Shown here piece by piece: positions 8,997 to 30,881 of a DNA stretch of 64,000 nt; positions within the stretch are counted from its first letter, which is position 1, and every line of letters starts with the position of its first letter. The DNA is taken from contig NZ_JACSNQ010000004.1 of assembly GCF_016900315.1 (NCBI RefSeq), forward strand, positions 62,001 to 126,000, read 5' to 3'. The position numbers and the translations under genes are program-made. Origin of the DNA: Olsenella profusa (GTDB taxonomy: Bacteria > Actinomycetota > Coriobacteriia > Coriobacteriales > Atopobiaceae). Below the pieces are notes generated by a model, which had not been told where the DNA came from, made no database searches, and saw nothing but the letters and a program-made list of their open reading frames with translations.

Positions 8997-10202
8997 TTAG
9001 AATCCCTGTTCCCCGATGAGCCAACGGGCCAGATCGAGCACCCTGATGCCGTCAATCGTGTAGTCGTCGTGTCGTGTCCTCGCGATAAGAACCTTGGGGT
9101 AGGCATCGCGTATCGCACGCAGAGGAGCGAGCTCGCGCTCGAGCGTCTCGGGTGCGTCTACGTTATCGCTCACCTGAATGTAGACCTGCTCCGACCCTCG
9201 CTTGACGACGAAGTCGACCTCCTTCTGGTAGAGCTTTCCCACGTAGGTCTCGTATCCGCGGCGAATGAGCTCCAAGAACACCGAGTTCTCGTACATGCGG
9301 CCCCAATCCATGTTGCGCGTGCCGAGCACCGCGTAGCGCATACCCGTGTCGCACACGTAGTGCTTCGCCTGCGTGCTCAGGTACTTCTTGCCCTTGATGT
9401 CATAGCGCTTGGCCTCGTAGAAGACGAAAGCGTCCCTCAGGTGCGAGATGTAGCGCCCAACCGTGACGTGGTTGGTCGACACTTTGTTTGCATCGAGGGT
9501 GTTGGCGATGCTGTTCGGCGAGTTAAGGTTTCCGGTGTTGTCCATCATGTACTCGGCGAGCCGCTCGAGCACCAGCGTGTCGGGCAGACGGAACTTCTGA
9601 ACGAGGTCTCGCGTAAGGATGGTCCTGTAGACGTCCCTGATGTAGCCGTATGACTCTGCCATGTCACGATACTCATAGGATCCAGCGAGGCCCCCGCGTT
9701 CGATATAGCGGTCCAGCTCTTCGTCGATGGCCCCCTGTTCGCCGAAGTATGCGCGAAACTCGCTGAAGCTGAACGGCAGGACATGAATCTCACGGTGCCT
9801 GCCGGTGAAGAGCGTGGCGAGGTCGGAACTCAGAAGGAACGCATTCGACCCGGTGAGGTAGATGTCCCACCCTCCCCGGGCATGGATACTGTTGATCGCC
9901 CTCTCGAAGCCCTCGCACCGTTGCACCTCATCGATGAATAGACGGTTTCGCACGCCATCCTTGTGGGATTTGGCAATCCTGTCGTGCAGAGCGTGATACT
10001 CGAGCAGCTCTTCGTTGTCGAGGTCGAGCAGATCGATGTAGAGGCTGTTTGACAAAGGGTCCCGCTTCTTGAGCTCGGCGGAGAACGCCTTCATGAGCTC
10101 GGACTTGCCCGAGCGGCGAACGCCGGTTATGACCTTGATGTCGCCTGTCCCCTCCACGGAGCGGAGTCGCTCGAGGTACGATTCGCGCTCGACCCAAGGC
10201 AT
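8997..10202 (-). CDS. AAA_14 family ATPase with DUF4143 C-terminal domain (copy 1)
   Basis: This 401-aa protein has Walker A GVRRSGKS (residues 27-34), Walker B LFIDEVQ (88-94), sensor-like DIYLTGSNAFLLSS, and a C-terminal DUF4143 region. Its nuclease-like core reads EVDFVVKRGSEQVYIQVSD, where the usual ExK of PD-(D/E)xK enzymes is QVS. Family function is unresolved; these genes are abundant and mobile in gut bacteria. GC is lower than the flanks. Start ATG 10202 follows TTGGAG. The promoter carries two identical self-palindromic sites (10221-10257) around a -10-like TAAAAT, implying repression at this site. It is one of three family members in the window (also 24892-26166 and 29515-30816). 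Confidence 0.85.
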   Translation of the reverse strand: MPWVERESYLERLRSVEGTGDIKVITGVRRSGKSELMKAFSAELKKRDPLSNSLYIDLLDLDNEELLEYHALHDRIAKSHKDGVRNRLFIDEVQRCEGFERAINSIHARGGWDIYLTGSNAFLLSSDLATLFTGRHREIHVLPFSFSEFRAYFGEQGAIDEELDRYIERGGLAGSYEYRDMAESYGYIRDVYRTILTRDLVQKFRLPDTLVLERLAEYMMDNTGNLNSPNSIANTLDANKVSTNHVTVGRYISHLRDAFVFYEAKRYDIKGKKYLSTQAKHYVCDTGMRYAVLGTRNMDWGRMYENSVFLELIRRGYETYVGKLYQKEVDFVVKRGSEQVYIQVSDNVDAPETLERELAPLRAIRDAYPKVLIARTRHDDYTIDGIRVLDLARWLIGEQGF

Positions 10203-10220
10203 ACGAGCTCCAATCTCACC

Positions 10221-10257
10221 GGTTTCGAAACAACCATAATTTTAAAGTTTCGAAACC
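10221..10257 (-). promoter_or_regulatory. Double palindromic operator and -10 box of AAA_14 copy 1
   Basis: GGTTTCGAAAC (10221-10231) and GTTTCGAAACC (10247-10257) form a perfect inverted repeat, and each 10-bp core GTTTCGAAAC is itself a palindrome, centres 25 bp apart. The AT-rich spacer holds TAAAAT on the minus strand (10244-10239), matching the -10 consensus at 5 of 6 positions. The start codon is 19 bp away. Binding of a dimer to either site would block the promoter. Confidence 0.6.
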
Positions 10258-10855
10258 GCTGACGCAACGTCTCGCACGATAGAGGCGGTCGACGAGGAGG
10301 GCAACTAATTGCAGCACCTCATCTACCACACAGTGCCGCAATTCATAGTGCGGGACTGCGGTGGTAACCCTTGCAGCGGTGATGACCTCCGGCATCGGAG
10401 CGGGGCCCATCGTCACGGCTCTCGTCGGGTCGGACTTCTCGGGATTGGACGGCGCCGCGCTGGCGAGCACGTGCCTCGCATACTAGAGACGTCTATGCCG
10501 AAAGCAACATAGCAAGACCCATTATTTCCGCAGGTAGACCTGGCAATTGGCTTGCGAATACCACACGAAATCACAACAACGACGTGAACGAAAGGACACG
10601 AGAAAAAACGAGGGGAACCGCTTTCGGCCTCCCTCGCGAAGAGCCTCAACTATTCCCACTCGCGATCAAATCGTTCCTTTCCATGGCTCTCGTCCACATG
10701 ATGTAACGGTCGTCTCCCCATTCTCACCGGAATCAGGTGATTTCAGGGCACCCGAGCTGAACTCAAAAATGAACTCAACACCTCTATCGGTCGGCGGCTT
10801 CAGAGCAGTTTGCATCCCCGAGGAGAGCAGGCGCCTCCGGCATGACCGATACCTG
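10258..10855. other. Non-coding gap; includes a 147-bp diverged repeat
   Basis: I see no credible gene here. The segment 10651-10797 aligns along its length with 26383-26521; the best-conserved part is CCGGAATCAGGTG, then GAGCTGAACTCAAAA, then ATGAACTCAAC. On the minus strand this copy reads in part VEFIFEFSSGALKSP, while the other copy has stops at matching places, so if it was once coding it is decayed. Both copies lie upstream of an AAA_14 gene, in the same orientation relative to it. Confidence 0.45.
10651..10797. repeat. Diverged about 145-bp repeat, copy 1
   Basis: Colinear with 26383-26521, with many substitutions and small indels. The shared core includes AACTCAA repeated twice (TGAACTCAAAAATGAACTCA). 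It lies about 450 bp upstream of the start of AAA_14 copy 1; the second copy lies about 215 bp upstream of AAA_14 copy 2, suggesting both were parts of related acquired segments. Confidence 0.55.
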
Positions 10856-11377
10856 CTAGATGCGCACGATATAACCGTCTTTGCGCGGGGCGGCCGCGCC
10901 CTCGGGTCCCGCGGCGTATCCCAAGGCGATCGCACCCACGCCTCGCAGCGTCTCGGGCAGGCCCCACTCCCTGAGGAGCGCCTTGCCCTCAGCACCGTCG
11001 AAGATCTCGCGCTCGCGGTGGATCCAGCAGCTGGAGAGCCCCAGGGCGTGCGCCGCGAGCATGAGGTTCTCAAGCACGCAGGAGCCGTCCTCCACGAAGG
11101 TGCCGCGCCCACCGTCGGCGAGCACGACCACGATGACCGGGGCGTCGTAGTACGGGTCGGTGCCCCTGCCCATGACGGCGGCGTTGAGCCGACGCAGGCG
11201 CTCGCGGGTCCCGGGGTCGGTCACCGCCACGATCACCGGAGACTGATGGCCGCCGCCGGTGGGCGCGAAGGTGCCCGCCTCGAGCACCTGATCGAGCAGC
11301 TCATCCGGCACGGGCTCCGCCGTGTATGATCGCACGCTGCGACGCGTCTTGATGAGGTCGATAAGGTCGTTCGCCAT
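10856..11377 (-). CDS. Nitroreductase family protein
   Basis: This 173-aa FMN-dependent oxidoreductase-like protein contains the phosphate-binding RRSVRSY near residues 12-18, TFAPTGGGHQSPVIVAV near 36-52, and a C-terminal GVGAIALGYAAG. These are typical of short nitroreductases that act as dimers in the cytoplasm on nitroaromatics, quinones or flavins. Start ATG 11377 is supported by AAAGGAC upstream; longer in-frame starts run into AT-rich intergenic DNA. The gene is divergent from the EamA transporter at 11756, and the 378-bp gap holds the regulatory leader of that gene. The natural substrate cannot be told from sequence. Confidence 0.85.
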   Translation of the reverse strand: MANDLIDLIKTRRSVRSYTAEPVPDELLDQVLEAGTFAPTGGGHQSPVIVAVTDPGTRERLRRLNAAVMGRGTDPYYDAPVIVVVLADGGRGTFVEDGSCVLENLMLAAHALGLSSCWIHREREIFDGAEGKALLREWGLPETLRGVGAIALGYAAGPEGAAAPRKDGYIVRI

Positions 11378-11554
11378 GATGTCATGTCCTTTCTCCCGCT
11401 GGTGCTGTCTATATAGAAAGGCCGCCCGTCTGCCAGAGGCAGGCGAGCGGCGAAAAGATGACGGTATCCGGAAAAATCCGCTGCGATTTTCGAGACCCAT
11501 TATGGCCTCAACGTCAGCGCTGTCAAGAGCCGAGGGCGATCCGACCATTCCTGC

Positions 11555-11582
11555 TTGACATTTTCGAAGAACCCTCGACAAT
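11555..11582 (+). promoter_or_regulatory. Predicted promoter of the EamA transporter gene
   Basis: TTGACA at 11555-11560 is a perfect -35 box. GACAAT at 11577-11582 (4 of 6 matches to TATAAT) follows a 16-bp spacer. Transcription would start near 11590, giving a leader of about 165 nt before ATG 11756. The region is AT-rich compared with the flanks. Confidence 0.55.
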
Positions 11583-11597
11583 TTAGTCCGTCTAAAA

Positions 11598-11755
11598 ACG
11601 TGTGGACTTTTCTGGGCGCAAGCCACCTTTTTGCCACGCAACCGAGCATCGGTCGCGTGGTTTTTCCTGCTTGTCAGCAGGGCAACCTCTCCTCCAAAAG
11701 CTCGGGACTTATGGAGCCGAGCCCCGCACAGAGCGGGACAACGGAAGGAGTAGAT
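11598..11755 (+). promoter_or_regulatory. Structured 5' leader with attenuator terminator
   Basis: The leader holds an intrinsic terminator (11634-11665): CCACGC/GCGTGG enclosing ACCGA/TCGGT with a GCA loop, then TTTTT. Upstream CGTGTGG can pair with CCACGC, giving a possible antiterminator. Downstream are three more hairpins: CCTGC/GCAGG, GCTCGG/CCGAGC and CCCGC/GCGGG. The layout fits a riboswitch or attenuator, but I cannot match it to a known class. Confidence 0.5.
11634..11665 (+). terminator. Intrinsic terminator in the EamA leader
   Basis: A stem of 6+5 bp (CCACGC-A-ACCGA / TCGGT-C-GCGTGG) with a 3-nt loop is followed directly by TTTTT at 11661-11665. It lies between the promoter and the start codon, so it would cause premature termination unless refolded. 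Confidence 0.7.
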
Positions 11756-12718: not shown

Positions 12719-12820
12719 CCAAGCCAATGAGACGGCTGCGGATTCGGAGCGACCAGCTGGAGGGAGCAGTCAGCAAGGATAATGGGGTTATTCAATCGGA
12801 ATGTGACAGGAGCGGGCATC

Positions 12821-14926: not shown

Positions 14927-15349
14927 ATGGCGAGGCGTCCGAAGCTGACGCAGGAGATGGTGGACGAGGCAATCAGCCTCAAGGCGGACGGCCTCTCCAA
15001 CGGCGACATCATCTGCGCCCTGGGGATCCACGAGTCCACGTTCTACCGCTGGATCGGCGACCCGAAGAACAGGCTGCAGCGCGCGTTAAGCGAGGGGCTA
15101 AAAAAGGAGGAGTCGGCGTTCAAGCGGACGCTGCTCACCACGATCCGCTCGGCGGCGCTGGCGCGCAACCAGTACTGGACGGCGGCGGCGTGGCTGCTGG
15201 AGCGCAAGTACCCGGACGAGTTCGGCAAGGCGGATCGCCAGCGCGACGACGCCAAGGCGGACGCCGCGCCGAAGATCGTGCTCGGCGTGCTCGCGCAGCC
15301 GGTGCAGGAGAGGCTGCCCGGCCTCGACGGGGACGGCGCCGATGGTTGA
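14927..15349 (+). CDS. Phage terminase small subunit
   Basis: This 140-aa protein has an N-terminal helix-turn-helix of the terminase-small type (LSNGDIICALGIHESTFYRWI, residues about 24-45), a helical oligomerisation middle, and an acidic C-terminal tail. ATG 14927 follows GGGGGTG; a GTG at 14873 upstream is possible but adds a stretch with no homology-like character. It recognises phage DNA and loads the large subunit. The stop overlaps the start of the large terminase by eight bases, the usual coupling for these genes. It lies 69 bp after the arsenic fusion gene. Confidence 0.8.
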   Translation: MARRPKLTQEMVDEAISLKADGLSNGDIICALGIHESTFYRWIGDPKNRLQRALSEGLKKEESAFKRTLLTTIRSAALARNQYWTAAAWLLERKYPDEFGKADRQRDDAKADAAPKIVLGVLAQPVQERLPGLDGDGADG

Positions 15350-16613
15350 CGCCTCCTCGCTCGTCATCCCGCGCTTCCACGACGTGCTGGGCGACGTGAT
15401 GGCCCACGGGCACACGCACTACTGGCTCCACGGCGGGCGCGGCTCCACGAAGAGCTCGTTCATCTCCGTGTGCATCGTCCTTCTCCTCCTGGCGCGACCG
15501 GAGGCGAACGCGGTGGTGGTGCGCAGGTTCTCGAACACGCTGCGCGACTCCGTGTTCTCGCAGATGACGTGGGCGATCGCGGCGCTGGGGCTCGACGCGT
15601 GGTTCCGCGCGCGCATCTCCCCGATGGAGCTCACGTACCTGCCCACGGGGCAGCGCATCGTGTTCAGAGGAGCCGACGACCCGCTCAAGCTCAAGGGCGT
15701 GAAGTTCGCGCGCGGCTACGCGGCGGTGGTCTGGTTCGAAGAGCTGGACCAGTTCGACGGCATCGACGCGGTGCGGAGCATCCTGAACTCGCTTCGGCGC
15801 GGCGGGGACGACTTCTGGATCTTCTACTCGTACAACCCTCCCCGGACGCTCTGGAGCTGGGTGAACCGCGAGGAGCTGGAGCGGGAGCGGCGGGCTGACA
15901 CGCTCGTTCGCCAGAGCTCGTATCTGGATGTGGTGGACTCGCACCCCGAATGGCTCGGCGCCCCCTTCGTCGAGGAGGCGGAGTACCTGCGTGAGGTGGA
16001 CGAGCGTGCGTGGCTCTCGGAGTACCTGGGCGAGGTCACGGGGACGGGCGGCAGCGTGTTCAACAACGTGGTGAGCGTGCGGCTCTCCGACGCGGCGTGC
16101 CGGGGCTTCTCGCGCACGCGAAACGGGGTGGACTGGGGCTGGCTCCCGGACCCGTGGCGCTTCGTGAGGTGCGGGTGGGAGCCCGGCGAGCGCAGGCTCA
16201 CGATCTTCGGCGAGCTCTCGGCGAACCGCAAGACGCCGAGCGAGACGGCGGCGATGGTGGCCTCGGCGCTCACCTACGCGGACGGACCCGGCGAGGACGC
16301 CTACCTGCACGACGGGCTGATCTGGTGCGACGACACGCCGGACGGCAAGCAGAGCATGGCCGTGTGGCGGCGCGAGGCGGGGCTGCGCGTGCGCCCTGCG
16401 AGGAAGTCGAACATGCGCAGGCTCAGCTACGAGTGGCTGGCGGGGCTGCGTGAGATCTGCATCGACCCGGAGCGGGCGCCGCTCGCCTACGAGGAGTTCC
16501 GCCTCAAGGAGTACGACCGTGACGGGACGTGGCTCGATGACATTCCCGATGGCAACGACCACTCGATCGACGCGGTGCGCTACGCGATGATGGACGACGC
16601 GCTGAGGGGGTAG
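15342..16613 (+). CDS. Phage terminase large subunit (PBSX-type)
   Basis: This 423-aa protein, full-length for the PBSX family, has Walker A HGGRGSTKSS near residues 30-39, Walker B AVVWFEELD near 127-135, and a C-terminal RNase H-like nuclease with acidic residues in GVDWGW, LIWCDD and GNDHSIDAVRYAMMD. It would translocate and cut DNA during head filling. No frameshift is visible, so the enzyme may be intact even though head genes are missing. The gene is followed by two copies of the dispersed TTCTTCTCGCC word and then a GIY-YIG gene, instead of directly by the portal gene as in a normal packaging operon. Confidence 0.9.
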   Translation: MVDASSLVIPRFHDVLGDVMAHGHTHYWLHGGRGSTKSSFISVCIVLLLLARPEANAVVVRRFSNTLRDSVFSQMTWAIAALGLDAWFRARISPMELTYLPTGQRIVFRGADDPLKLKGVKFARGYAAVVWFEELDQFDGIDAVRSILNSLRRGGDDFWIFYSYNPPRTLWSWVNREELERERRADTLVRQSSYLDVVDSHPEWLGAPFVEEAEYLREVDERAWLSEYLGEVTGTGGSVFNNVVSVRLSDAACRGFSRTRNGVDWGWLPDPWRFVRCGWEPGERRLTIFGELSANRKTPSETAAMVASALTYADGPGEDAYLHDGLIWCDDTPDGKQSMAVWRREAGLRVRPARKSNMRRLSYEWLAGLREICIDPERAPLAYEEFRLKEYDRDGTWLDDIPDGNDHSIDAVRYAMMDDALRG

Positions 16614-16620
16614 CGGCGCG

Positions 16621-16747: not shown

Positions 16748-17617
16748 ATGAACATCCCTCTGAACAGCATCCTCAACCTCACGGAAGAGCGGATTGAGAA
16801 CAGCAAGATCGAGCTGAACATGAACGACGGAAAGACCAAGGAGCCGTTCATCGACCGATGGCTCGACCGTCCGGAGGACGAAAGAGCGGCCGGCCTGGCC
16901 AAGAGGTGCTCGTACTGGACCTGGTACAGGCCGGACCGAAGGAACTTCCGGGAGGGCAACTGGGTGTTCAGCTTCATGCGCCTCTACCGCCAGGACGAGT
17001 GGCTTTTCGTGTCTGCCGCCGAGATTGTGGACACACCTGAGTACGGGAGCGAGAACGGATATGCGACGGTACGGATTCTCGAGACCTACGCGCCCCTGTT
17101 CGGGAGGCTCATCATCAACCTCCACAAGGGCAACAAGTTCTCGCTCTACGTGTTCAGGCTCGACAAGTTCCTCGGCGAGGCGACGGTGAAGGAGATCCTG
17201 CCGGCGCTCTACACCGGCGAGGCGTTCGATGGGTACGACCGCGTGCACCTGCCCTACGCGAAGCTCGACAGGATTTTCAGGCGCGAGATCATGTCCTCCT
17301 ACCATGACGCACTAGAGAGCGTGACCGGGGTCTACTGCCTCACGGATACCAGGACCGGAAAGCTCTACATAGGCTCTGCCACCGGTGAGGGCGGCGTGGC
17401 GGCGCGCTGGGGCAGCTACCTTGACTCCAGGCACGGAGGCAACAAGAAGCTGCGAGAGCTCTACGATCGCGAGGGCGAGGGGTACTTCCGAGAGAACTTC
17501 GAGTTCACGCTCCTGGAGTACTTCGGCATGAGCTACGACCCGCAGAAGGTGCTGGAGCGGGAACAGTGGTGGAAGGACTGCCTCGACACGCGGGCTCACG
17601 GATACAACGATAACTAG
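16748..17617 (+). CDS. GIY-YIG nuclease family protein inserted in packaging operon
   Basis: The first about 190 residues of this 289-aa protein form a domain I do not recognise (mixed alpha/beta, many Tyr/Trp/Arg). The last about 95 form a GIY-YIG domain: GVYCLTDTRTGKLYIGSAT, then an Arg in ARWGSYLDSRH, and LEREQWWKDCLDTRAHGYN with the metal-binding Glu position. The gene sits between terminase and portal, genes normally adjacent, and is bracketed by copies of the GCGTTCTTCTCGCC word (16621, 16692 upstream; 17621 downstream). This looks like a homing-type or other mobile insertion. GC is lower than in the flanking phage genes, which supports separate origin. Start ATG 16748; the binding site is weak (GGCAGGTGTGCC). 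Confidence 0.75.
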   Translation: MNIPLNSILNLTEERIENSKIELNMNDGKTKEPFIDRWLDRPEDERAAGLAKRCSYWTWYRPDRRNFREGNWVFSFMRLYRQDEWLFVSAAEIVDTPEYGSENGYATVRILETYAPLFGRLIINLHKGNKFSLYVFRLDKFLGEATVKEILPALYTGEAFDGYDRVHLPYAKLDRIFRREIMSSYHDALESVTGVYCLTDTRTGKLYIGSATGEGGVAARWGSYLDSRHGGNKKLRELYDREGEGYFRENFEFTLLEYFGMSYDPQKVLEREQWWKDCLDTRAHGYNDN

Positions 17618-20181: not shown

Positions 20182-22059
20182 ATGCCGTATAACGAAGGCC
20201 GGGATGAGATGATCAAGAACGTAAGTGACCCCTCCGTAGCCAACATCCTATCGACCGATGCGCTGAAGGTCTACAACATACCCCGTTACCAGCGTGAGTA
20301 CACATGGGGCCAGCGAGACTGGGCGAACCTCTACGACGACGTCTTCGACAATGACCCAGGCTACTTCCTCGGGTCCATCATCGTCATCCAGGGCGAGATC
20401 GACCCGAAGACCAACATAGTGGACTTCGAGGTCATCGACGGCCAGCAGAGGCTTACTACCATCAGCCTGCTACTCGCAGCGCTGTACGCCCGCATCAACG
20501 AGCACCCAGACGCCATAGACGAGGACATGCAGCTCGACGACATCAGGCCGCTGCGCAACAGGCTCGTCCTCAAGTCGAACAAGGGCATGACGCGCGTGGT
20601 GCCTCAGGTTCAGAACCACAACCAGGACGACTACCGCTGGATCCTCAAGGAACGCGTCGGACTCGCAGTCGTGATGCAGCGGCCCAAGTACCACGGCGTG
20701 CGCAAGATGTCGAAGGCATTCGAGTACTTCTATGACCGGCTCGGCGAGGAGATCTCCGGCATGGGTGATGACGATGCCGTGAGCACCCTGCTCGACAAGA
20801 GCAGGGTGCTCTGCTCGGCCGTGCTCGTGCAGATCAACGTAGACAGCCACGCAGACGCCTACACGCTGTTCGCATCGCTGAACAACCGAGGCGTGCCCCT
20901 CTCCGCCGTGGACCTAATCAAGAACACCCTGCTTGCGAAGGTGGTCGACGCCGATGGTGACGAGCTCGACTACTACTTCGAGCAATGGCAGGAGGTGCTT
21001 CGCAACCTCGGCGACGACTACGCCACCCAGGAGCGCTTCTTCCGCCAGAACTACGACGCCTTCCGCCGCGACGTGAACAGGCCCTTCGTGCAGGAGGGCG
21101 GCGCACAGCTGCCGCTCGGCTCGGTGGCCACCCGCTCAAACCTGCTCAAGATCTACGAAATGAGGATCGGCCAAGACCCCGGCGCGCTTGGGGTGCTCGA
21201 CGAGCTCATCGGCAACTCCGCCATCTATTCGCAAATCATCGGGGTTGACCGCGAGGGCATGGACGCCGGGCTCGTACGCCAGCTCGCGGAGATTGCACGC
21301 GCTCAGGGCGTCCCCTCCTACCTGATGCTCCTCTACCTCATGAAGAAAAGGTCGGAGCTCGACCTGGACGACAGCCTCATCGCCGGAATCGCCGCGCTGC
21401 TGGTCAGGTTCTTTGTGAGGCGCAACGTGACCGACACGCCGCCCACCCGCGATTTGGAGCGCCTTTTCATTAGCATCTGCGAGGGCATCGAGGACGAGCG
21501 GATGAAGGGCGTAGACGTCGCCCGCTACATCAAGCGGAGGCTTGTCGACGTTTCGTCAAGCGACGCGACCTTCAAGGAGCGGCTTGAGGGACCGATATAC
21601 GACGTGAACCCGGACATGACGCGCTACATCCTCACCGTGCTCGCGGAGCCGAGCGTCACCAAGGAGATGAAGGGGCTCTGGGAGCGCTACCCGTCAGGTA
21701 ACTACGTGTGGACCATCGAACACGTGCTCCCCCAAGGCGAGAACATCCCAGCGAGCTGGGTGGACATGATCGGTGGTGGCGACAAGGCGAAGGCCCGGGA
21801 GATTCAGGCTGCATACGTCCACACCCTCGGCAACCTGACCATCACCGGCTACAACTCGAAGCTGAGCAACATGCCCTTCATCGAGAAACGCGACCGCAAA
21901 GACTCAAACGGCTCGAACGTCGGGTACCGCAACGGACTCAACCTCAACGACGACCTCGTGAGCGTGGACAGCTGGACGAAGGAGCAGATTGAGGCGAGAA
22001 CCGAGAAGCTCGTGAAGCTCGCATTGAAGGCATTCACGTTCGACGACATCGAGTTTTAG
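20182..22059 (+). CDS. GmrSD-type restriction protein (DUF262 + DUF1524)
   Basis: This 625-aa single chain carries both halves of the GmrSD type IV restriction enzyme. The N-terminal DUF262 has IPRYQREYTW (residues 33-42) and DGQQRLTT (86-93), the ParB-like nucleotide-binding motifs. The C-terminal DUF1524 HNH nuclease has WTIEHVLPQ (about 510-518), HTLGNLTITGYNSKLSN (about 549-565) and a following FIEKR. Family members cut modified phage DNA or act with partner proteins. The start may instead be ATG 20209. Only 15 bp separate it from the 811-aa gene downstream, so they form an operon. Completeness of all motifs suggests the enzyme is active. Confidence 0.88.
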   Translation: MPYNEGRDEMIKNVSDPSVANILSTDALKVYNIPRYQREYTWGQRDWANLYDDVFDNDPGYFLGSIIVIQGEIDPKTNIVDFEVIDGQQRLTTISLLLAALYARINEHPDAIDEDMQLDDIRPLRNRLVLKSNKGMTRVVPQVQNHNQDDYRWILKERVGLAVVMQRPKYHGVRKMSKAFEYFYDRLGEEISGMGDDDAVSTLLDKSRVLCSAVLVQINVDSHADAYTLFASLNNRGVPLSAVDLIKNTLLAKVVDADGDELDYYFEQWQEVLRNLGDDYATQERFFRQNYDAFRRDVNRPFVQEGGAQLPLGSVATRSNLLKIYEMRIGQDPGALGVLDELIGNSAIYSQIIGVDREGMDAGLVRQLAEIARAQGVPSYLMLLYLMKKRSELDLDDSLIAGIAALLVRFFVRRNVTDTPPTRDLERLFISICEGIEDERMKGVDVARYIKRRLVDVSSSDATFKERLEGPIYDVNPDMTRYILTVLAEPSVTKEMKGLWERYPSGNYVWTIEHVLPQGENIPASWVDMIGGGDKAKAREIQAAYVHTLGNLTITGYNSKLSNMPFIEKRDRKDSNGSNVGYRNGLNLNDDLVSVDSWTKEQIEARTEKLVKLALKAFTFDDIEF

Positions 22060-22074: not shown

Positions 22075-24510
22075 ATGAACAATACGGTCGCAGCTGCTTT
22101 CTTCATGGATGACGACAGGCCGCTCATCCAATACGAGCTCGCATTCCAAGAGAAGCCAAAGCTCCTCGTGGCTGAACCCAGTTCTTTCGGAAGCTCATCG
22201 GGTGCCAGAGAGGTTTATGCTGGCGTGACCGAGACACTTGAGGACAGCATCAAGTGGGAACCACACGTAGACGAGGCGGACAAGCTCGACTACATCGTCG
22301 CGGTGAGCAGCGGCGTCCTTTCCGGCCTTATTGATGTCTTCTACATGGGCGAGCTCTCCCTCGACCACGCAAGCGAGTGGGGCAGGGACAAGATCGAGAA
22401 GGTGGTGATGAAGGTCGCCCGCGTGGAAGGCTACTCCGGGAATGACTTAAGCGACGCGATAAAAACGCTCGAGAAGAACCACCCGCTTGCGGCTGATGGC
22501 AACACCAACGACTTCGGCGGAGGACTGCAGCACCACCTTCGCGACTTCTCACACCATTTCAGCATCGGCGGCCTGTTCTTCTCGATATTCACCCAGTTCA
22601 CCGGGCTTGTCGTGGGAACCGACAAGGCAGGCATGCCGCACGTCGTTCCCGTCCCCAAGTCGCACAGGGCCTGCATCGGAAAGAACTTCCAGGAGAAGAT
22701 CGCCTTCGGAACCATCGGCTGGTTCTTCCACATGGTAAGCGACATGGCAGGCTCCAGCGGTGCGCTCATGGGCGGCACCGGCATTCCCGGCCCGCTCATA
22801 TCGTTCATGAAGGAGCTCTCGGCGCTCCCGTTCTTCAAAGAGTCCGGCGACGGAGACATGGGCTTCCGTCTGTGGGTGACCAAGCTCTTCAACGGAACCT
22901 TGCTTGCCGACCACGACGAGAACGGCAGGATAATCAAGGACAGCGTCAGGAAGTTCGACCTGCGCACCGAGGTCGGCATACTCGGCGAGGTCGGAAGGCA
23001 GACCATCCCGGTGCTCATAAACCAGTGCGTCGTGCGCGGGTTCTACTTCTGCAGGAGGCTTGCCCGCGAGGTCCGGGACCTTGGGATACGCTGCATTGGC
23101 GACCTCGAGCGAATCGCCCCCGAGGACATTCTTCCCTGGGGCACCCCCGCCATGCGCCGCATGGTCACCGTGTCGAGCGGCGTCTTCACTGGCGTGGACA
23201 TCGCCGACGCCGCCGTGAGGGCCATCATGGGCAAGGACCCCGTCACGTTTTTCCTACGTGTGAACTACGTGGGCGTGGCGACTTTCATGATCGCCTGCGT
23301 CGTAGACGTAAACGCCACGCTCAAAGACAGGGAGTTGGAAGAGGGCGAGAGCCCAGAGGAGGCATACGAGCACGGGCTTTCCGACCTTGGCTGCCTCAAG
23401 CTCGACTTCATGCAGGCGCGAATGCTGCACTCGATCGAATACGCCATCGTCGCCCACGACATCACAGAAGAGAAGCACCCAAAGCGCGCCGAGAGGAAGC
23501 GCGCATGGCTCAAGGAATGGAGCGAGATGGTCGTCGAAACGGTCGACCTCGTTTGGGCAGCAAGCGCCGGGTACTTCCTAGGCAGTGATGCCATATACGA
23601 CTCCGTCGCGACACGACTCGATAACCGCGCAAACAGCTCCTGGCTGTGGCTCATCGCGATGGAAGCAAAGCGGTTCAAGCCCTACGTTCCGCTACATGGC
23701 GACAACGACAAGCTCTACAAGGGGCTCAAGCTCGGCAGCGACTACCTCGGCGAGGTATTCTGCGAGCGCCAAAGCGTCGTGGAAAAGAAGGACCTCACGA
23801 AGCTAGACAAAGCGGTTAACAGCGCACGCGGTAAGCTTGACGGTGCCGTTACCAAACGTGTCGTTGGAGCTGCAGGAACCGTGGTTGTCGTGGCAGCGAC
23901 TGGTGGTCTCGCGTTCTACTTCGCACCCGCCATAGCACCGACATTGGCAGCGGCTCTGGGGCTTGAGGCGGCCGCGCTGCACGGAGCCGCTCTCACGAGT
24001 GCCAGCCTTGCATTTCTTGGCGGCGGCGCCATCGCCGCCGGTGGCACCGGCATGGCAGGCGGGACTATGCTCATAGCCGGCGGTGGCGCGCTGCTCGGAG
24101 CCGTCGGTGGTTCCGGCGTCTCTGCCGCGACGTCGATGGCACTTGTGACGAACGGGAGCTATGTACTGGACGAGTGCGCCAAGCTCGTGGCCTTCTGCAA
24201 GGAAGTGCTTATCGGGCGGTACGACGACCTCAACTCCGTCACTGAGATCCATACCGTGCTGAACCAGCGGATACTCGAGCTTGAGGTGGAAATCGAGACG
24301 ATAAAGCGTGGAGTGCCTGACGATAAGGTGCCCGATGACGATAACGATGGAGCGGATGACAAGGATGAGATCAGCCCGAAGAAGATGATTAAGATCCTGA
24401 ACCGGAGTCGGAAGTTCATGCGACGCAGCAGTGATGAGCTCGCCAAGACTCTGAAGACGGCGACCAAGAAGATAAGCGCCTTGCCAGCTGGTGGTAAGAT
24501 GGGGTCATGA
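22075..24510 (+). CDS. Unrecognised 811-aa protein with glycine-rich membrane domain
   Basis: I cannot name this family. Residues about 1-580 look soluble or peripherally hydrophobic and contain a His-rich LQHHLRDFSHHFSIGGLFF (about 150-168) that could bind metal. Residues about 597-690 are hydrophobic and glycine-rich (for example GGGAIAAGGTGMAGGTMLIA), like glycine-zipper membrane hairpins of pore or membrane-damaging effectors. A coiled-coil and an acidic linker (PDDDNDGADDKDE, about 755-767) precede a basic C terminus. Start ATG 22075 follows AGCTGGA. It is coupled to the GmrSD-type gene (15-bp gap), so the pair may act together, for example as sensor/nuclease plus membrane effector. That is inference from context only. 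Confidence 0.6.
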   Translation: MNNTVAAAFFMDDDRPLIQYELAFQEKPKLLVAEPSSFGSSSGAREVYAGVTETLEDSIKWEPHVDEADKLDYIVAVSSGVLSGLIDVFYMGELSLDHASEWGRDKIEKVVMKVARVEGYSGNDLSDAIKTLEKNHPLAADGNTNDFGGGLQHHLRDFSHHFSIGGLFFSIFTQFTGLVVGTDKAGMPHVVPVPKSHRACIGKNFQEKIAFGTIGWFFHMVSDMAGSSGALMGGTGIPGPLISFMKELSALPFFKESGDGDMGFRLWVTKLFNGTLLADHDENGRIIKDSVRKFDLRTEVGILGEVGRQTIPVLINQCVVRGFYFCRRLAREVRDLGIRCIGDLERIAPEDILPWGTPAMRRMVTVSSGVFTGVDIADAAVRAIMGKDPVTFFLRVNYVGVATFMIACVVDVNATLKDRELEEGESPEEAYEHGLSDLGCLKLDFMQARMLHSIEYAIVAHDITEEKHPKRAERKRAWLKEWSEMVVETVDLVWAASAGYFLGSDAIYDSVATRLDNRANSSWLWLIAMEAKRFKPYVPLHGDNDKLYKGLKLGSDYLGEVFCERQSVVEKKDLTKLDKAVNSARGKLDGAVTKRVVGAAGTVVVVAATGGLAFYFAPAIAPTLAAALGLEAAALHGAALTSASLAFLGGGAIAAGGTGMAGGTMLIAGGGALLGAVGGSGVSAATSMALVTNGSYVLDECAKLVAFCKEVLIGRYDDLNSVTEIHTVLNQRILELEVEIETIKRGVPDDKVPDDDNDGADDKDEISPKKMIKILNRSRKFMRRSSDELAKTLKTATKKISALPAGGKMGS

Positions 24511-24578: not shown

Positions 24579-24730
24579 GAAACGCAAGGGGTTTGTCGAC
24601 AATTCCATAAGCGAAACTGTACAAAATGCGGCTGGCAGCTCACCGCCGAGCGATATCGGAGCATGAATGTCATCGTTGTTCGAAAGCTCTAGCGTATTTA
24701 AGTCTCTCACCTGCCCTGCCCTTCATGCCG

Positions 24731-24775
24731 AGTAGATGAGAGTAGGTCCGAGTAGGTTAGAGTGGATAAGGGTAG
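24731..24775 (+). repeat. 10-bp tandem repeat array A (4.5 units)
   Basis: Units read AGTAGATGAG, AGTAGGTCCG, AGTAGGTTAG, AGTGGATAAG and a partial GGTAG, exactly 10 bp apart. A second array of the same family lies at 24863-24892. One-helical-turn spacing places each unit on the same DNA face. Confidence 0.75.
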
Positions 24776-24862: not shown

Positions 24863-24892
24863 AGTAGGGCCGAGCAGATAAGAGTAACTTCC
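24863..24892 (+). repeat. 10-bp tandem repeat array B (3 units)
   Basis: Units AGTAGGGCCG, AGCAGATAAG and AGTAACTTCC are in 10-bp register with each other. The last one touches the end of AAA_14 copy 2 (stop at 24892). About 87 bp without repeats separates arrays A and B. Confidence 0.65.
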
Positions 24893-26166
24893 TAGTAGTC
24901 CACTTCCGGCAAGGCGCTCGCTTGTTCCAACCCGAACGTCCGTCCCTCCCCGATCAGCTCCGTCACGTTCTCGTGCACGATGCCGCTACGGTGCTGGATG
25001 GGGTCGTTGCGCGTGATGACGAACTTGGGCCAGTTGTCCCGTATCTGCTCGAGCGGGCGGTACTCGCGGTCCTCGGTCGAGAGGCTGTTCATGATGGTCA
25101 TCGCCACCTGCACGTAGGCGTACTCCATCTCGGGCGACCTCATGACGAAGTCGCACTCGAGCTTGCCGATACGCCCCACGCTCACCTCGTAGCCCAAGCT
25201 CCGCGCGTAGCTGTACACGATGTTCTCCAGCACGGGCCCGTAGTTGATGCGGTTGTCCGTGTTGAGCGCGAAGTAGAAGCTCAGGTCGGCGAGATAGTAC
25301 TTCTGCTCGCCTCGAAGCGACCTGCGCGACTTCATATCGAAGCGCTCGCAACGTCGTATGATCTTGGCGTCCTCGAGTATCCGAAGGTAGCGGTCCAGCG
25401 TCTCGCGCTTAATATGGACACCCTGCTTCGCAAGGTCGTCAAGGATATTAGTCAGGCTTGTCGTTGCCCCAAAATTGTTCGTGATGTACTTTCTGACCGT
25501 TTCGAACACGGGCATGTTACGAACTTGGACCCTGCGACGGACGTCCTTCTCCAGAATCTCCGCGACAACGGACTTGACGTAAGCTCGCTTATCGACGAGC
25601 GCCTCGTATCCGAGCGCCTTGGGAAAGCCGCCCTCCAAGATGTAAGCATCGAGCTCTACCACGGGATTGGGGTTGACCGACTTGCCGAGAAATACCTTCA
25701 TGTCCTCGTATTCCTTGAAGGTGAGCGTCTGCATCTCGAACTCGATGTAGCGACCGGTCAGCTTGGTCATGAGCTCGCCCGAAAGCAGGTAGCTGTTAGA
25801 GCCGGTGATGAAGATGGACCAACCCCCATCGGTGCGAAAGGCGTTCACAACCTCCTCGTAGCCTCTCACGTTCTGAACCTCGTCAATGAACAGGTATTTC
25901 AATCCGTCAGGTGCGCCGGCGGAAGCACTATCGATCGCTGCCTCGAGCTCGTCGGCAGTCTTGACCTTCCGCAGCTTGCGGCTGTCGAGATCGAGGTAGA
26001 CGATGGAAGCCGAGCTGATGCCACTCTCGACGAGCTCTTGGGCAACGGTTTGCATAAGACAGGACTTTCCGCAGCGCCGCACGCCGGTGATGACCTTTAT
26101 GATCTCGTCATCATGATAGAAGCCCCTAATCTTCCTGAGATAATTCTCACGCCTGAATAGCTCCAC
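24892..26166 (-). CDS. AAA_14 family ATPase with DUF4143 C-terminal domain (copy 2)
   Basis: This 424-aa protein starts at GTG 26166 behind GATGGAGG. It has Walker A GVRRCGKS near residues 28-35, Walker B YLFIDEVQN near 90-98, sensor IFITGSNSYLLSG, and a C-terminal nuclease-like core KLECDFVMRSPEMEYAYVQVAM in which the ExK position is again replaced (QVA). It is a close structural parallel of copy 1 and less like copy 3. The promoter region carries a perfect 16-bp inverted repeat (26205-26254), different in sequence from those of the other copies. The 3' end abuts a 10-bp repeat array. Family role is unresolved; context here is a defence-like island. Confidence 0.85.
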   Translation of the reverse strand: MELFRRENYLRKIRGFYHDDEIIKVITGVRRCGKSCLMQTVAQELVESGISSASIVYLDLDSRKLRKVKTADELEAAIDSASAGAPDGLKYLFIDEVQNVRGYEEVVNAFRTDGGWSIFITGSNSYLLSGELMTKLTGRYIEFEMQTLTFKEYEDMKVFLGKSVNPNPVVELDAYILEGGFPKALGYEALVDKRAYVKSVVAEILEKDVRRRVQVRNMPVFETVRKYITNNFGATTSLTNILDDLAKQGVHIKRETLDRYLRILEDAKIIRRCERFDMKSRRSLRGEQKYYLADLSFYFALNTDNRINYGPVLENIVYSYARSLGYEVSVGRIGKLECDFVMRSPEMEYAYVQVAMTIMNSLSTEDREYRPLEQIRDNWPKFVITRNDPIQHRSGIVHENVTELIGEGRTFGLEQASALPEVDY

Positions 26167-26204: not shown

Positions 26205-26254
26205 CAAGTTAGGGGGTATTTAGCACATAATTTCAATGAATACCCCCTAACTTG
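26205..26254 (-). promoter_or_regulatory. Perfect 16-bp inverted repeat upstream of AAA_14 copy 2
   Basis: CAAGTTAGGGGGTATT (26205-26220) and AATACCCCCTAACTTG (26239-26254) are exact reverse complements, separated by 18 AT-rich bases. The nearer arm lies 39 bp from the GTG start. The AT-rich spacer can hold promoter elements, so the repeat is placed as an operator. Confidence 0.65.
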
Positions 26255-26311
26255 AACAATTAGACAATGGGAGCCCAAAAGAGACCAGCAAGTTTGGCAA
26301 AGAGGCTCTTC

Positions 26312-26343: not shown

Positions 26344-26382
26344 GAGAGGTGGTATTATACGTATATACGAACGTGTGTTCGC

Positions 26383-26521
26383 TATTCCCGCTCAGTAATC
26401 AAAATGTGCACTCTCATCACCGTTCGTCTACGCGGTGTACCGTCGTCTTCCAATTAACCGAAATCAGATGGTTTCCGGGTGCCTGAGCTGAACTCAAATG
26501 AACTCAACGCCGATTTGTCGG
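26383..26521. repeat. Diverged about 145-bp repeat, copy 2
   Basis: Colinear with 10651-10797. It contains CCGAAATCAGATGGTTTC and GAGCTGAACTCAAATGAAC. The 13-mer CCCGCTCAGTAAT at its left end also occurs at 8827-8839, next to the 3' side of AAA_14 copy 1. Confidence 0.55.
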
Positions 26522-26745: not shown

Positions 26746-26751
26746 TCGGCC

Positions 26752-26813: not shown

Positions 26814-27449
26814 TCGATCGCTCACAGTCAATGCGGGGAACGACCTGTGGCGAACGATGAGAACATCGTCCAAGTTTTCGACTTCCGTATGAGCACGGCT
26901 CTATTCGAATCCACAGGCAGCCCAAGTTCTCTTTGGGCCCTCTAAGACATCTGGGCTGCCCTCGTTACCCGCTTATGACGGGAAGAGCCAATACAAGCGC
27001 GGTGAACTGATCGCCGTCCTCCAAGACAGAACCCAGCGTCTCGATCCATTCCGGTCATTTTTTGGACATAGCAGCACTGCTGCCCAGAAAAATGTCAAGA
27101 ATAACGCATCCTCGTAAGGGGTCATTTAGCGTCGAATATGCCTCCGATGCCCCATAACCGCAAATATCCCGCTCCCACTCGATGGGATCGCGCTTCGTAA
27201 GTCTCCAAACACCATACCGCTCAAACTGTCAACACCCATCGCATCCATACTTCATGGCAACCAATTTAACTAAACCCAATCGTTACCCGACTGTTACAGA
27301 CACCAAAACGACGCTTGTCGTTAGCTCTAAACTCAAGCCGAAAATAACCCTAGGCTCAAACGACAAAATGATGGCCGCGGAAGGATTCGTTACGGACCCT
27401 ATACAATCATCTCCCCCTCCATCTATAGGTTGCCTTCGACTGTCTCTCC

Positions 27450-29462
27450 CTACTTCGCCAACCCAAGCTCTCTCGCCAGGCGAAACACGCTTTCATCGTA
27501 GTATGGCCAATCAACGAATGAATCCAAGCCTCCAAGCCCACTCTTCCTCATCAATTCTTCGTTGATTTTCAGGGTAATAGCTATAAGCAACGACAGAAGC
27601 TTGAAATAGTCTGCTCGAATGTCATCTGCTTGAGGATCATCAATAGATGAATTGGCATGATCGTATCGATTACGAAGACCAGCAGAATTCGAAAAAGACG
27701 CATCGTTGAACATGTAGTCAAGATAGTCGGACTCAAATGGCGCAAACAGTTTATCGCAGTAGCTGATAGTATGCCGACTTGCCAATGACTCGACAATTTC
27801 TAGATCCCTTTTTCCAAGTCGAAACAGGGGCAACGCATCGTGCTCCCATATGATTTTGAGGCAAACGGCATAATCCGTTGGCTCCAACCTCCCATTTTCA
27901 TCGTGTTCAATTACAAACTCGTTTTTTATGAGTTCATTCAGGTTCGGTTGTAAATACTCTGGGTAATCGCCTCGCGTCACATGGTGGTTCACCATCATCT
28001 CGTAAAAACTCGATTCACTTATCTTTTCTGCATGTAAATACGAGAGCATGCACTGATCTGAAAACAAGAGGCTGCCAAATCGCTCAAAACTTGATCCTGC
28101 AATGGCGTACTTCTTGCCGTCCAAAGCCGTGAGAGATGAAAAGGACCTCATGCTCTCATGGGGAAAATACTCATCATCTATCACGCCATATTTTGAATAG
28201 AGGGAATATGCCTTTACAGCTCGCTCAATCTCGGGCCCAATCGCCTTGCATTTGTCCAGCCACGTTGCCTTTTCCGAAGGCAGGGCAAGCGAAAAACCGG
28301 TTATGTCGAATTCCTCCGCGAAATATTGGTTGTAAACCCATTCGATTGCCGATTCCAGGCGACCCCCGTTTGTCTCAAGGAAATTCGCATACGCCATGGT
28401 TTCGAGATGCGTTAGGCCGCTGCGCATCTGAAATCCAGTTGTTTCACGATACTCCCCTTTTACGTGCATACCCAAGGTCGCCATAATTCCATGCTCCTCA
28501 TGCTTCCGCGCAGGCGCCTGCATGAGACCATGCGAATCAACAAAATCAAATACATAAATCAGATTGTTCATCACGGTTGCGGGATCCATATACTTTTTCA
28601 GCCAGCGTCCGCTGAAAGAATGCGTTAGGCTAAAACCTTCTCTCGTCACTCCCTTACAGGCGTTTTGCCTCATATCGATTACTACGCCCGTGCCGTACCT
28701 AAGCCCGGTCCCATTCCGGAACAAATCATCCATAGATTTATCGTATTGCCGCTTAGCTTTTACGCGAACCTCCGGAGACGGATTGTACCGAGCCGCCTTA
28801 CCTGACGGCCAATTTCGCAAAGCAGACACGTAATTCGGATTTGCGGTTTCACTATTGATGTAACTAAGCATGATGCCGTCTATTTCCGAATTTCCCAAGT
28901 TTTGCGGCAAGTTGAGAGCCTTCTCACTTGTCTCCTCAGCAGCAAGACGGCCTACGATGAGCTCGGCAGAATATCTCGGATTGTTGATCAGGGCGCGTTT
29001 AATCTCGTCCGCAAAGCACTCAACCGGTTTCTTGTATTGCAAGACCATACCAAGGCATTCCGGATGATCCATCAACAACTTCTCAAAGTCGGGCGATTTC
29101 ATCTTCTGCCATGCTCCGCATGCTTCCATAAGCTCCCAGAATTCCTTCCCGTACTGGAGCTCAACTTGATCGTAGACTTCCCCAATGCTCTTATTCTCCA
29201 GCTCAGAAGACACAAGCCTGCATGCTTTGGAAAAAAGGATTGTCGCTCGTCTCGGATGATCCTCGATTGATTGGCCTAGAAATAACTCGGGGATGCCCTC
29301 GACCGTCAGCTTTATTTGATGGGCCTCAATAGCTTCGTTTATCGAAGTGAGGTCGACGATTTCCGCACTTGCTAGCACAGACAGGCATCTATCTCTATGG
29401 ACACCCGCCGCATAATCATTGCGCCCGTAATAAACAACCCTCTTTTCATCGAAATCACGCAT
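27450..29462 (-). CDS. Large unknown protein with C-terminal HEPN-like motif
   Basis: This 670-aa protein starts at ATG 29462 behind AGAGAGGTGATT. GC and codon use are much lower than the neighbours, showing recent acquisition. I do not recognise a family for the first about 580 residues. Near residues 595-602 GLRNRYDHA contains R-x4-H (RNRYDH), flanked by predicted helices, as in HEPN ribonucleases and DUF4209-type proteins with LRN..H. HEPN domains are common toxins of abortive-infection systems. The gene stands alone between two AAA_14 genes, 52 bp downstream (in transcription order) of copy 3, so it may be cotranscribed with it. A defence role is inference. Confidence 0.6.
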   Translation of the reverse strand: MRDFDEKRVVYYGRNDYAAGVHRDRCLSVLASAEIVDLTSINEAIEAHQIKLTVEGIPELFLGQSIEDHPRRATILFSKACRLVSSELENKSIGEVYDQVELQYGKEFWELMEACGAWQKMKSPDFEKLLMDHPECLGMVLQYKKPVECFADEIKRALINNPRYSAELIVGRLAAEETSEKALNLPQNLGNSEIDGIMLSYINSETANPNYVSALRNWPSGKAARYNPSPEVRVKAKRQYDKSMDDLFRNGTGLRYGTGVVIDMRQNACKGVTREGFSLTHSFSGRWLKKYMDPATVMNNLIYVFDFVDSHGLMQAPARKHEEHGIMATLGMHVKGEYRETTGFQMRSGLTHLETMAYANFLETNGGRLESAIEWVYNQYFAEEFDITGFSLALPSEKATWLDKCKAIGPEIERAVKAYSLYSKYGVIDDEYFPHESMRSFSSLTALDGKKYAIAGSSFERFGSLLFSDQCMLSYLHAEKISESSFYEMMVNHHVTRGDYPEYLQPNLNELIKNEFVIEHDENGRLEPTDYAVCLKIIWEHDALPLFRLGKRDLEIVESLASRHTISYCDKLFAPFESDYLDYMFNDASFSNSAGLRNRYDHANSSIDDPQADDIRADYFKLLSLLIAITLKINEELMRKSGLGGLDSFVDWPYYDESVFRLARELGLAK

Positions 29463-29514
29463 ACAATCACCTCTCTCTGCTGTCTGCAGCAAGAACCCCA
29501 AAGTGAGCGACTGG

Positions 29515-30816
29515 CTACCCCCACAATCCCATGTTCGACATCGCGTACAGCGGAACGTTCCTCATCCAGTCCTGCTCGCGATAGCCCGACAGACTGAAAC
29601 GGACGGACTTGATCTTCGGGTGGGACTCCTTGAACGCCCTGAGGCTCTTGGCGCGCAGGTTCTCCTCCGCCTTCACCTCGATGGCGTAGACGCTGTTCGG
29701 CCCCTGCGCCAGGAAGTCGACCTCACCCGATGAGTTCTCGGCCGACCAGTAGTACGGCATGAGCCCGCAGTCGGAAACGAGCTGCTGGCAAACGTACTGC
29801 TCGGTGAGGGAGCCCTTGAACTCCTCGAAGATCTCGCTGCCCCCGATGACCGTCTCCTTGTCCAACCCCGCCATCGCGCCCAGCAGGCCGACGTCCACCA
29901 GAAAGAGCTTGAACGCCGCGTCGTCGGCGTAGGGAGCCAGGGGGATACCGGGCTTCGAGATCCTGCGGACGAGGGTCGTGATGCCAGCCTGCGTGAGCCA
30001 CGTGATCCCCGCCCGGTAGTTCCGCGCCCGCGCGCCTTGCACGATGTGGCTGAACACGAACTTCTTGTTCTCCCTCCCAAGATGGGACGGGATCGAACGC
30101 CACGCGGCGAGCGCGTACTCAGTCTCGACCCTGCCGAGGTGCTTCGAGATGTCGCGCTCGTAGCCGCGCAGAATATCGAGCTGCACCTCGCGCGCATCCT
30201 CCAAGAGACCTCGCTCAAGAAAGGCGCTCACCGCCTCCGGCATCCCCCCGACGTAGTAGTACTGACGAAGGGGCGGAACGAACTTGCTTGAGAAGCCGTT
30301 GATGAGGCTCGTGTCTCCCGTGTCGATGAGGTCGCAGAGCGTCCGGTTCCCCGTTGCGACAAGAAACTCCCGAAAGCTCAGGGGATGGAGATCGAGCGTG
30401 TTCACCTTCCCAACGGGGTACCCGCTTCCCTCGTGCACGGTGATGCCCAGAAGCGAGCCGGCCGCAGCCACCACGTACCCGGGCGCGTCCTCGCAGAAGT
30501 ACTTGAGGGAGGTGAGCGCCTTCGGGCACGCCTGGATCTCGTCGAGGACGATGAGGGTGCCGCCCTCGGACACGACCTCCCCCGTCTCGAACTGGATGGC
30601 CGAGACGATGCGCGGGATGTCGTAGCCCAGCTCGAACTGCTCGCGCATCCTTGGGTTGTCGTCGAGGTTCACGTACGCGACGTTCTCGAACTGCGTCCTG
30701 CCAAACTCCTTGAGCAGCCACGTCTTGCCCACCTGGCGCGCACCGTTGAGGATGAGCGGCTTGCGGCGGGGCCCGTTTTTCCAGGCAACAAGCCCATCCA
30801 TGAGGAATCGTTCCAT
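29515..30816 (-). CDS. AAA_14 family ATPase with DUF4143 C-terminal domain (copy 3)
   Basis: This 433-aa protein has Walker A LNGARQVGKTWLL near residues 23-35, Walker B TLIVLDEIQACP near 86-97, AAAGSLLG sensor region, and a C-terminal DUF4143 domain. Its nuclease-like core is intact: EVDFLAQGPNSVYAIEVKAEE, with D and ExK, unlike copies 1 and 2. Start ATG 30816 follows TAGGAGAGGAG. A perfect 17-bp inverted repeat lies 24 bp upstream. It is on the same strand as guaA (stop at 30915) and as the HEPN-like gene downstream. GC is close to the core genome, so it may be an older resident than copy 2. Confidence 0.87.
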   Translation of the reverse strand: MERFLMDGLVAWKNGPRRKPLILNGARQVGKTWLLKEFGRTQFENVAYVNLDDNPRMREQFELGYDIPRIVSAIQFETGEVVSEGGTLIVLDEIQACPKALTSLKYFCEDAPGYVVAAAGSLLGITVHEGSGYPVGKVNTLDLHPLSFREFLVATGNRTLCDLIDTGDTSLINGFSSKFVPPLRQYYYVGGMPEAVSAFLERGLLEDAREVQLDILRGYERDISKHLGRVETEYALAAWRSIPSHLGRENKKFVFSHIVQGARARNYRAGITWLTQAGITTLVRRISKPGIPLAPYADDAAFKLFLVDVGLLGAMAGLDKETVIGGSEIFEEFKGSLTEQYVCQQLVSDCGLMPYYWSAENSSGEVDFLAQGPNSVYAIEVKAEENLRAKSLRAFKESHPKIKSVRFSLSGYREQDWMRNVPLYAMSNMGLWG

Positions 30817-30839
30817 GCAAGCTCCTCTCCTAAAATAGA

Positions 30840-30881
30840 TACGGCCTTATTTTCGCACAGAATGGCGAAAATAAGGCCGTA
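30840..30881 (-). promoter_or_regulatory. Perfect 17-bp inverted repeat upstream of AAA_14 copy 3
   Basis: TACGGCCTTATTTTCGC (30840-30856) and GCGAAAATAAGGCCGTA (30865-30881) are exact reverse complements with an 8-bp spacer (ACAGAATG). On the minus strand the hairpin lies between the guaA stop and the ATPase start and is followed by TCTATTTTAGG, so it could also end guaA transcripts. The parallel with copies 1 and 2 favours an operator role. Confidence 0.6.

Follow-up and report, generated by a model that had tools for sequence, protein, structure and literature searches.

A 64,000-nucleotide stretch of the Olsenella profusa genome (contig NZ_JACSNQ010000004.1, positions 62,001 to 126,000; hereafter the window) encodes three AAA_14/DUF4143 ATPases, here called copies 1 to 3, each of which is preceded by its own inverted repeat. 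Very probably each of these proteins is a repressor of its own transcription that would act through a winged helix on repeats lying over its own promoter, with separate operators for the separate paralogues. The repeats are linked to their genes, and in the copy 1 family they occupy a defined part of the promoter, with bases that vary in step with residues of the neighbouring protein. This covariation, taken together with a confident winged-helix model, makes it most likely that each ATPase represses its own gene with a specificity distinct from that of its paralogues.

Repeats upstream of the AAA_14/DUF4143 genes

The three genes lie on the reverse strand, and their products all pass the Pfam cut-offs for AAA_14 and DUF4143 and match the PDC-S01 models of PADLOC with E values from 4e-126 to 1e-167. 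Copy 1 (8997-10202, 401 residues) and copy 2 (24892-26166, 424 residues) match the PADLOC model PDLC04787 and copy 3 (29515-30816, 433 residues) matches PDLC04786. Upstream of copy 1, CGGTTTCGAAAC and its inverse are separated by a 15 base pair (bp) spacer and form perfect arms of 12 bp (10220-10258, 18-56 bp from the start). The repeat of copy 2 consists of CAAGTTAGGGGGTATT, an 18-bp spacer and the inverse, with perfect arms of 16 bp (26205-26254, 39-88 bp from the start), and that of copy 3 of TACGGCCTTATTTTCGC, an 8-bp spacer and the inverse, with perfect arms of 17 bp (30840-30881, 24-65 bp from the start). The original prediction had placed a perfect inverted repeat before each of the three genes, with three mutually unrelated sequences, and on sequence this is borne out, except that the arms of copy 1 measure 12 bp and not 11. 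It had also read the C-terminal motifs as EVK in copy 3 and QVS and QVA in copies 1 and 2, which they are in the fuller form of IEVK, IQVS and VQVA. These are versions of a nuclease-like motif, and of the three window copies only copy 3 retains it in full.

The genome of origin contains seven DUF4143 matches, one of them under the family cut-off, and four of the seven have a perfect palindrome upstream. Inspected by eye, one of the other three carries a palindrome of 14 bp containing a single mismatch, another has four or five direct repeats in tandem, and the third, the match under the cut-off, has a short inverted repeat of 7 bp plus one more copy. A wider sample came from 31 congeneric genomes, the DUF4143 copies analysed being those among the matches listed; of 144 matches, 134 had a Walker A motif and a usable start, 125 of these were non-duplicate and 121 had enough upstream sequence. 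An inverted-repeat score of at least 12 is reached in none of 605 dinucleotide shuffles (five for each of the 121 upstream regions), in keeping with the earlier view that chance is an unlikely source. A score of at least 10 is found at 53 of the 121 genes, compared with 38 of 274 controls with intergenic upstream regions, a set which still included reverse-strand frames sharing a DUF4143 repeat as well as terminator-like palindromes, and 4 of the 605 shuffles. A cleaner per-gene test, with 100 shuffles for each gene and inverted or direct repeats accepted at p of about 0.01, was run on all 121 genes and on a random 160 of the 305 genus controls; a significant repeat lies upstream of 86/121 DUF4143 genes and 25/160 controls, so that the comparison with control genes which had been suggested as a check finds the repeats far commoner at the ATPases. 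Outside the genus, where 132 genes were reduced to 120 by dropping short and duplicate upstream regions, the count is 40/81 in named genomes and 19/39 in viral contigs, as opposed to 9/95 controls. The observation is thus real and more general than first stated, with repeats beside most copies in the genus and about half of those in other phyla and viral contigs.

The repeats are also specific to their own genes. The palindrome pattern of copy 3 occurs once in its own genome and in 6/31 genomes of the genus, each time beside the orthologous gene, of which a seventh example (L019) bears a variant of it; that of copy 1 occurs in three genomes and that of copy 2 in two, each time at the respective orthologue, and a search of the 31 genomes matched the window patterns nowhere except at their own gene. 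When the genus proteins are clustered at 60% identity, upstream alignments inspected by eye contain a repeated motif in all 24 multi-member clusters; the motif differs from cluster to cluster and is inverted in about half of them and tandem in the others. The notion of a palindrome at the promoter consequently holds for the window genes and fails as a rule, since many subfamilies carry tandem direct repeats. Within clusters 7, 8 and 12 the arms or tandem copies change jointly, as judged by eye: cluster 7 has TTGGCAG in L113 and L050 and CTGGT in L103 and L107, cluster 12 has GTCGGAAAAA in L067 and L040 and TCTATTGAG in L090 and L095, and cluster 8 shows single paired changes, not all of them complete (L084 has one mismatch and L035 has two). 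In 38 of 49 copy-3-like genes the best direct repeat is offset by 32-34 bp (23 of 400 controls), and this offset is that of the majority of members in nine of ten copy-3-like clusters. Among 35 copy-2-like genes, those more than about 60% identical mostly retain both the helix residues KRET and the half-site core GGGGGTAT, across several families of Coriobacteriia.

The repeats might instead be targets of another factor of the neighbourhood, such as a regulator or a recombinase acting on an invertible promoter, with the ATPase as a passenger. The island that contains the window genes does adjoin guaA and includes further defence candidates, but each window palindrome is found at its own gene only and, as described below, repeat bases change along with residues of the ATPase next to them across phyla, which leaves this alternative extremely improbable. 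The invertible promoter in particular was rejected, as the spacers hold a single orientation in the aligned clusters 5 (seven genes) and 19 (three genes). Two spacers of cluster 9 (L002 and L016) are mutual reverse complements; they are near-palindromic, with two bases differing, and the relation is taken as chance.

A separate palindrome, GATGATACGAAGGGA ctg TCCCTTCGTATCATC, lies at -144 to -111 upstream of cluster 1 genes (L027, L026, L028, L044 and L029). This could be a dispersed element of intergenic regions and not an operator, because a similar palindrome, AAAGGGA ctg TCCCTTT, precedes a control gene in L063.

Promoter position and residue-to-base covariation in the copy 1 family

A scan for sigma-70-like promoters covered 51 copy-1-like genes with a clear repeat axis. 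In 28 of them the best promoter has its -35 box at 0 to +5 and its -10 box at +23 to +28 from the axis, which places the right half-site (+12 to +17) between the two boxes and hence upstream of the transcribed region. For copy 1 itself the scan proposes a tentative promoter on the reverse strand, TTGCGT (10262-10267, three mismatches to TTGACA), 17 bp and TAAAAT (10239-10244, one mismatch, within the repeat spacer), with the left arm between both boxes; the match is weak and other promoters were chosen for its two orthologues.

This arrangement bears on the possibility that the repeats are RNA hairpins of the 5' leader, serving as attenuators or stabilisers, or else terminators of the upstream gene, for example guaA before copy 3. 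The window repeats are perfect palindromes with a loop and that of copy 3 lies directly 3' of the guaA stop codon, which speaks in its favour. The right half-site between -35 and -10 in much of the copy 1 family nevertheless argues for a DNA operator and against an RNA hairpin, as a hairpin with its right arm there would be untranscribed. Moreover, direct repeats occupy the same place in many clusters of other subfamilies, the choice of bases follows protein residues, the copy 3 palindrome is present in just the six genus genomes and always at the ATPase gene, and an Rfam search of 8900-31000 returned nothing above the gathering thresholds. Both forms of the explanation are very improbable and were rejected on the grounds of direct repeats, promoter position, the distribution of the copy 3 palindrome and the negative Rfam result, paired transcribed arms not being present in every member.

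The AlphaFold model of copy 1, built from 30 sequences, has a mean predicted local distance difference test (pLDDT) score of 91.2 and a predicted template modelling (pTM) score of 0.90. Between the ATPase and nuclease-like domains it contains helices at 209-221, 229-238 and 245-257 followed by strands at 261-268 and 273-283, with ten-residue pLDDT means of 84-96 over residues 201-290, and the predicted fold of residues 209-283 is read as a winged helix. Residues 244-246 begin its third (recognition) helix and residue 230 begins the second; the starts of these two helices are the places where winged-helix proteins contact bases. The model of copy 3 is poor (mean pLDDT 52.3 from five sequences).

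The relation between protein and repeat was followed in copy-1-like genes. Out of 226 matches 207 were kept, of which 80 had enough upstream sequence and were at least 50% identical to one of P0001, L131, L138 and L141; half-sites agreed in 62 of the 80, nine of these were removed as misregistered or unclear, and the half-sites of nine genes were read by eye before any protein columns were displayed (eight added, one re-entered unchanged), to give a final set of 61 from several phyla. Read inward, the half-site is T, x7, x8, x9, x10, A. Residue 245 follows x9 in all 59/59 genes, 37 of which combine His with C and 22 Asp with G. Residue 244 goes with x7 (Asn and T in 44, Asp and C in 8, His and A in 5, and three other cases) and residue 246 tracks x8 (Lys or Arg with C in 39, Thr with G in 6, Val or Ile with T in 13, Val with A in 3), while residue 230 tracks x10 more weakly. 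In copy 1 the corresponding codons, both on the reverse strand, are N244-H245-V246 at 9465-9473 and N230 at 9513-9515.

On a tree built without residues 218-268, x9 and residue 245 change six times each and all six changes coincide; x7 and residue 244 change eight times each (nine jointly), x8 three times and residue 246 six times (six jointly), and x10 and residue 230 four times each (five jointly). With one gene taken from each of 23 clusters at 75% identity, residues 244, 245 and 230 rank top of 307 columns for their own base, and in 300 permutations, which treat the clusters as independent, no column reaches the observed values. When each base is predicted from genes less than 75% identical only, residue 245 gives the right base in 59/59 cases, compared with 45 for the nearest relative and 37 for the majority base. 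Residue 244 is right in 52/60 (45 for nearest relative and majority base alike) and residue 246 in 46/61 (37 and 39, respectively). The copy 1 family protein thus appears, on this comparison, to read its own repeat by means of residues 244, 245 and 246. Four further copy-1-like genes (L126, L127, L311 and L317) have a residue set not seen elsewhere, N230 with T244 R245 K246, and carry GTGGGAATA repeated in direct orientation, which would add an entry to the code.

A number of results weigh against the autorepressor reading. Residue 246 ranks second for x8, behind L200, and residue 230 predicts its base in 45/56 cases, no better than relatedness (nearest relative 50/56). Nineteen genes outside the 61 served as a held-out set, six of which carry residues without an entry in the code; support from the other 13 is moderate, the predicted six-letter word occurring at least twice in 8/13 genes (7/13 without one self-palindromic word that was counted on both strands) and in 5/125 other word sets. 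A seven-letter version finds it in 3/13 genes and 0/191 other words, a test that was poorly framed since one position is variable in the TTCA group. Group B, a more distant group with a different repeat geometry, comprises 127 genes, of which 61 show a site-like pair and 38 entered the comparison. Here the column that ranks first for the base at index 8 is once more residue 246 (z score 5.0), but residues 244 and 245 are top for no base and the top columns for indices 2, 4 and 7 lie outside the recognition helix (z scores 5.0, 11.2, the latter due to one gene, and 4.9); these three indices vary little, and index 9 is without a clear column. The distant group supports the residue code in part, at one base only. 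Three copy-2-like genes (L435, L436 and L438) retain KRET in the helix while their half-sites have diverged, the best promoter lies elsewhere in 23 of the 51 scanned genes, copy 1 and its orthologues included, and neither 35 of the 121 genus genes nor about half of the DUF4143 genes outside the genus have an individually significant repeat. Finally, sharing of operators showed no partial correlation with recognition-helix differences at fixed overall identity (105 of 240 within-cluster pairs usable), in a crude test based on exact repeated 8-mers and a single alignment over divergent subfamilies. The suggestion that repeat similarity tracks one protein domain is supported by the winged-helix residues of the copy 1 family and finds no support in this genus-wide test of pairs. 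Confidence in self-repression is slightly lowered because the distant group supports one base only and because L435, L436 and L438 depart from the code. At the level of residues the evidence is confined to the copy 1 family, and for copies 2 and 3 it is family-level conservation of the repeats that points the same way.

Proposed mechanism and island setting

It is proposed that the winged helix that separates the ATPase from the nuclease-like domain binds half-sites which recur in inverted or tandem order according to subfamily, and that these half-sites overlap the -35/-10 region of the protein's own promoter so that binding would repress transcription. A small number of residues where the recognition helix begins would choose the bases that are read, possibly by a comparable code in other subfamilies, and paralogues in one cell would possess separate, non-interfering operators and not silence each other because their reading residues differ. 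Control over assembly on the repeats, which may be ATP-dependent, or over release from them probably falls to the ATPase.

Alternatively, the protein could bind the repeats as an activator, or mark the locus for the nuclease-like domain, without repressing. The evidence for binding is silent on the sign of regulation, and the best promoter has its -10 box on the far side of the axis in 19 of the 51 copy-1-like genes. A half-site between near-consensus -35 and -10 boxes (TTGA.. and TATAAT) is, however, the classical position of a repressor, and promoters with near-consensus boxes need no activator. As copies 1 and 2 are without the EVK motif, cutting at a marked locus is unlikely there, and the alternative as a whole is improbable. 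The original prediction held that each protein recognises its own palindrome either as an autorepressor or to distinguish self from other copies; enrichment, linkage and covariation favour the autoregulator, and nothing here favours the marking of self against other in a further process.

More speculatively, and with considerable doubt, these proteins could be single-chain alarm units in which one polypeptide combines a sensor ATPase, a sequence-addressed repressor and, in the copies with EVK, an effector nuclease. Their orthogonal addresses would be set by a code of nearly one residue to one base, and each unit would be released when an invader or a change of nucleotide state draws the protein off its operator. 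If so, one cell could hold many independent, self-silenced units. A Bacteroidia genome (G032, the source of L138) has 63 DUF4143 matches, some of them fragments or under the cut-off, and a 1.6 Mb Bacilli genome (G036, the source of L149) has 31; both are suited to asking how many orthogonal operators a single cell contains. The AAA_14/DUF4143 family is very common and often counted among candidate anti-phage genes, and no settled function was found for it. Reading of a promoter by identifiable residues would be a first concrete activity for the PDC-S01 family, which would gain a promoter assay for finding its trigger, and the relation of residues 244, 245 and 246 to three adjacent bases would constitute a natural DNA-recognition code open to single-residue swaps.

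Between copies 1 and 3, next to guaA, lie a terminase gene (15342-16613), which is a prophage remnant, a UzuA-like gene (16748-17617) with a GIY-YIG match below the cut-off, a GmrSD-type restriction gene (20182-22059) matching the PADLOC models Orf5 and HEC-06, a BnzB-like gene (22075-24510) and a PADLOC PDC-S56 gene (27450-29501). The window genes are thus in the setting of a defence island, which is consistent with a possible role in defence. The 16-bp sequence ATTCCCGCTCAGTAAT at 26384-26399 has a copy with one mismatch at 8823-8838; 0.34 matches within three mismatches are expected and at least two are found in 3/100 shuffles, the pattern having been derived from these same sites. By eye ATTCCCGCTCAGTAAT resembles the 3' end of guaA (30915-30935), and related sequences occur in four of 17 loci examined: in L038, L108 and L110 they immediately precede cluster 0 genes, and in L083 they immediately follow the copy 1 orthologue. 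It may be the attachment-site repeat of islands integrated at guaA. DUF4143 genes of clusters 0, 5 and 20 start a short distance past a sequence that by eye resembles the guaA end (GAGTGGGAATAA or similar; L112, L116, L003 and others), and the presence of different clusters at this place in different species points to a hotspot. Imperfect 10-bp tandem repeats (GAGTAGATAA, 4.6 copies) occupy 24730-24775 between copy 2 and the converging gene at 22075-24510.

Comparison with known systems

The DNA sites of Orc1/Cdc6 are repeated and in many cases adjoin the gene for the protein itself. A sequence search of the Protein Data Bank with copies 1 and 3 gave no match, and the solved structures nearest to the model of copy 1 are SSO1545 (2fna, E value 2.4e-8) and DNA-bound Orc1/Cdc6 (2qby and 2v1u, E value 3e-6, with a template modelling (TM) score of about 0.3). 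SSO1545 and archaeal Orc1/Cdc6 share with copy 1 the order of an AAA+ ATPase followed by a winged helix. The proteins described here differ from Orc1/Cdc6 in that the repeats lie over promoter elements of the gene encoding the ATPase itself and are different for each paralogue, and in that a nuclease-like domain follows.

All three window proteins carry AAA_14 and DUF4143 and match PADLOC PDC-S01, for which an anti-phage role is a candidate one only. COG1373, which we take to be the same family, appeared in none of the papers among the matches listed in a broad literature search. Under the family names no report of promoter repeats or autoregulation was found, and a search for DUF4143 with inverted repeats found no paper, as far as titles and extracts go and in a body of literature that excludes subscription papers and preprints. 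According to the available extracts of one account, PDC-S01 is a fusion of an ATPase with a domain of the PD-(D/E)XK type and comes fourth in frequency among defences across prokaryotes (PMC12988326). The extracts of the PDC-S01 accounts mention no DNA-binding role, promoter repeats or autoregulation, save for 'HTH motifs' (helix-turn-helix) and a predicted 'transcription regulation' for one Thermus gene. In Thermus thermophilus the AAA_14/DUF4143/HTH gene TT_P0211 is listed as one of 12 genes and rises 6.6-fold with a plasmid present in the Argonaute-bearing strain (PMC4406477); this rise may hint at induction.

A putative role in controlling a defence locus also links the present proteins to RptR, a stand-alone repressor of defence islands (PMC12255303), and to the WYL-domain regulators, which likewise exert stand-alone control of a defence locus (PMC9122601), both as described in the available portions of these papers. 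RptR is there a separate small protein, whereas the putative DNA-reading domain of the AAA_14/DUF4143 proteins sits inside the ATPase itself, and each paralogue would have a site of its own.

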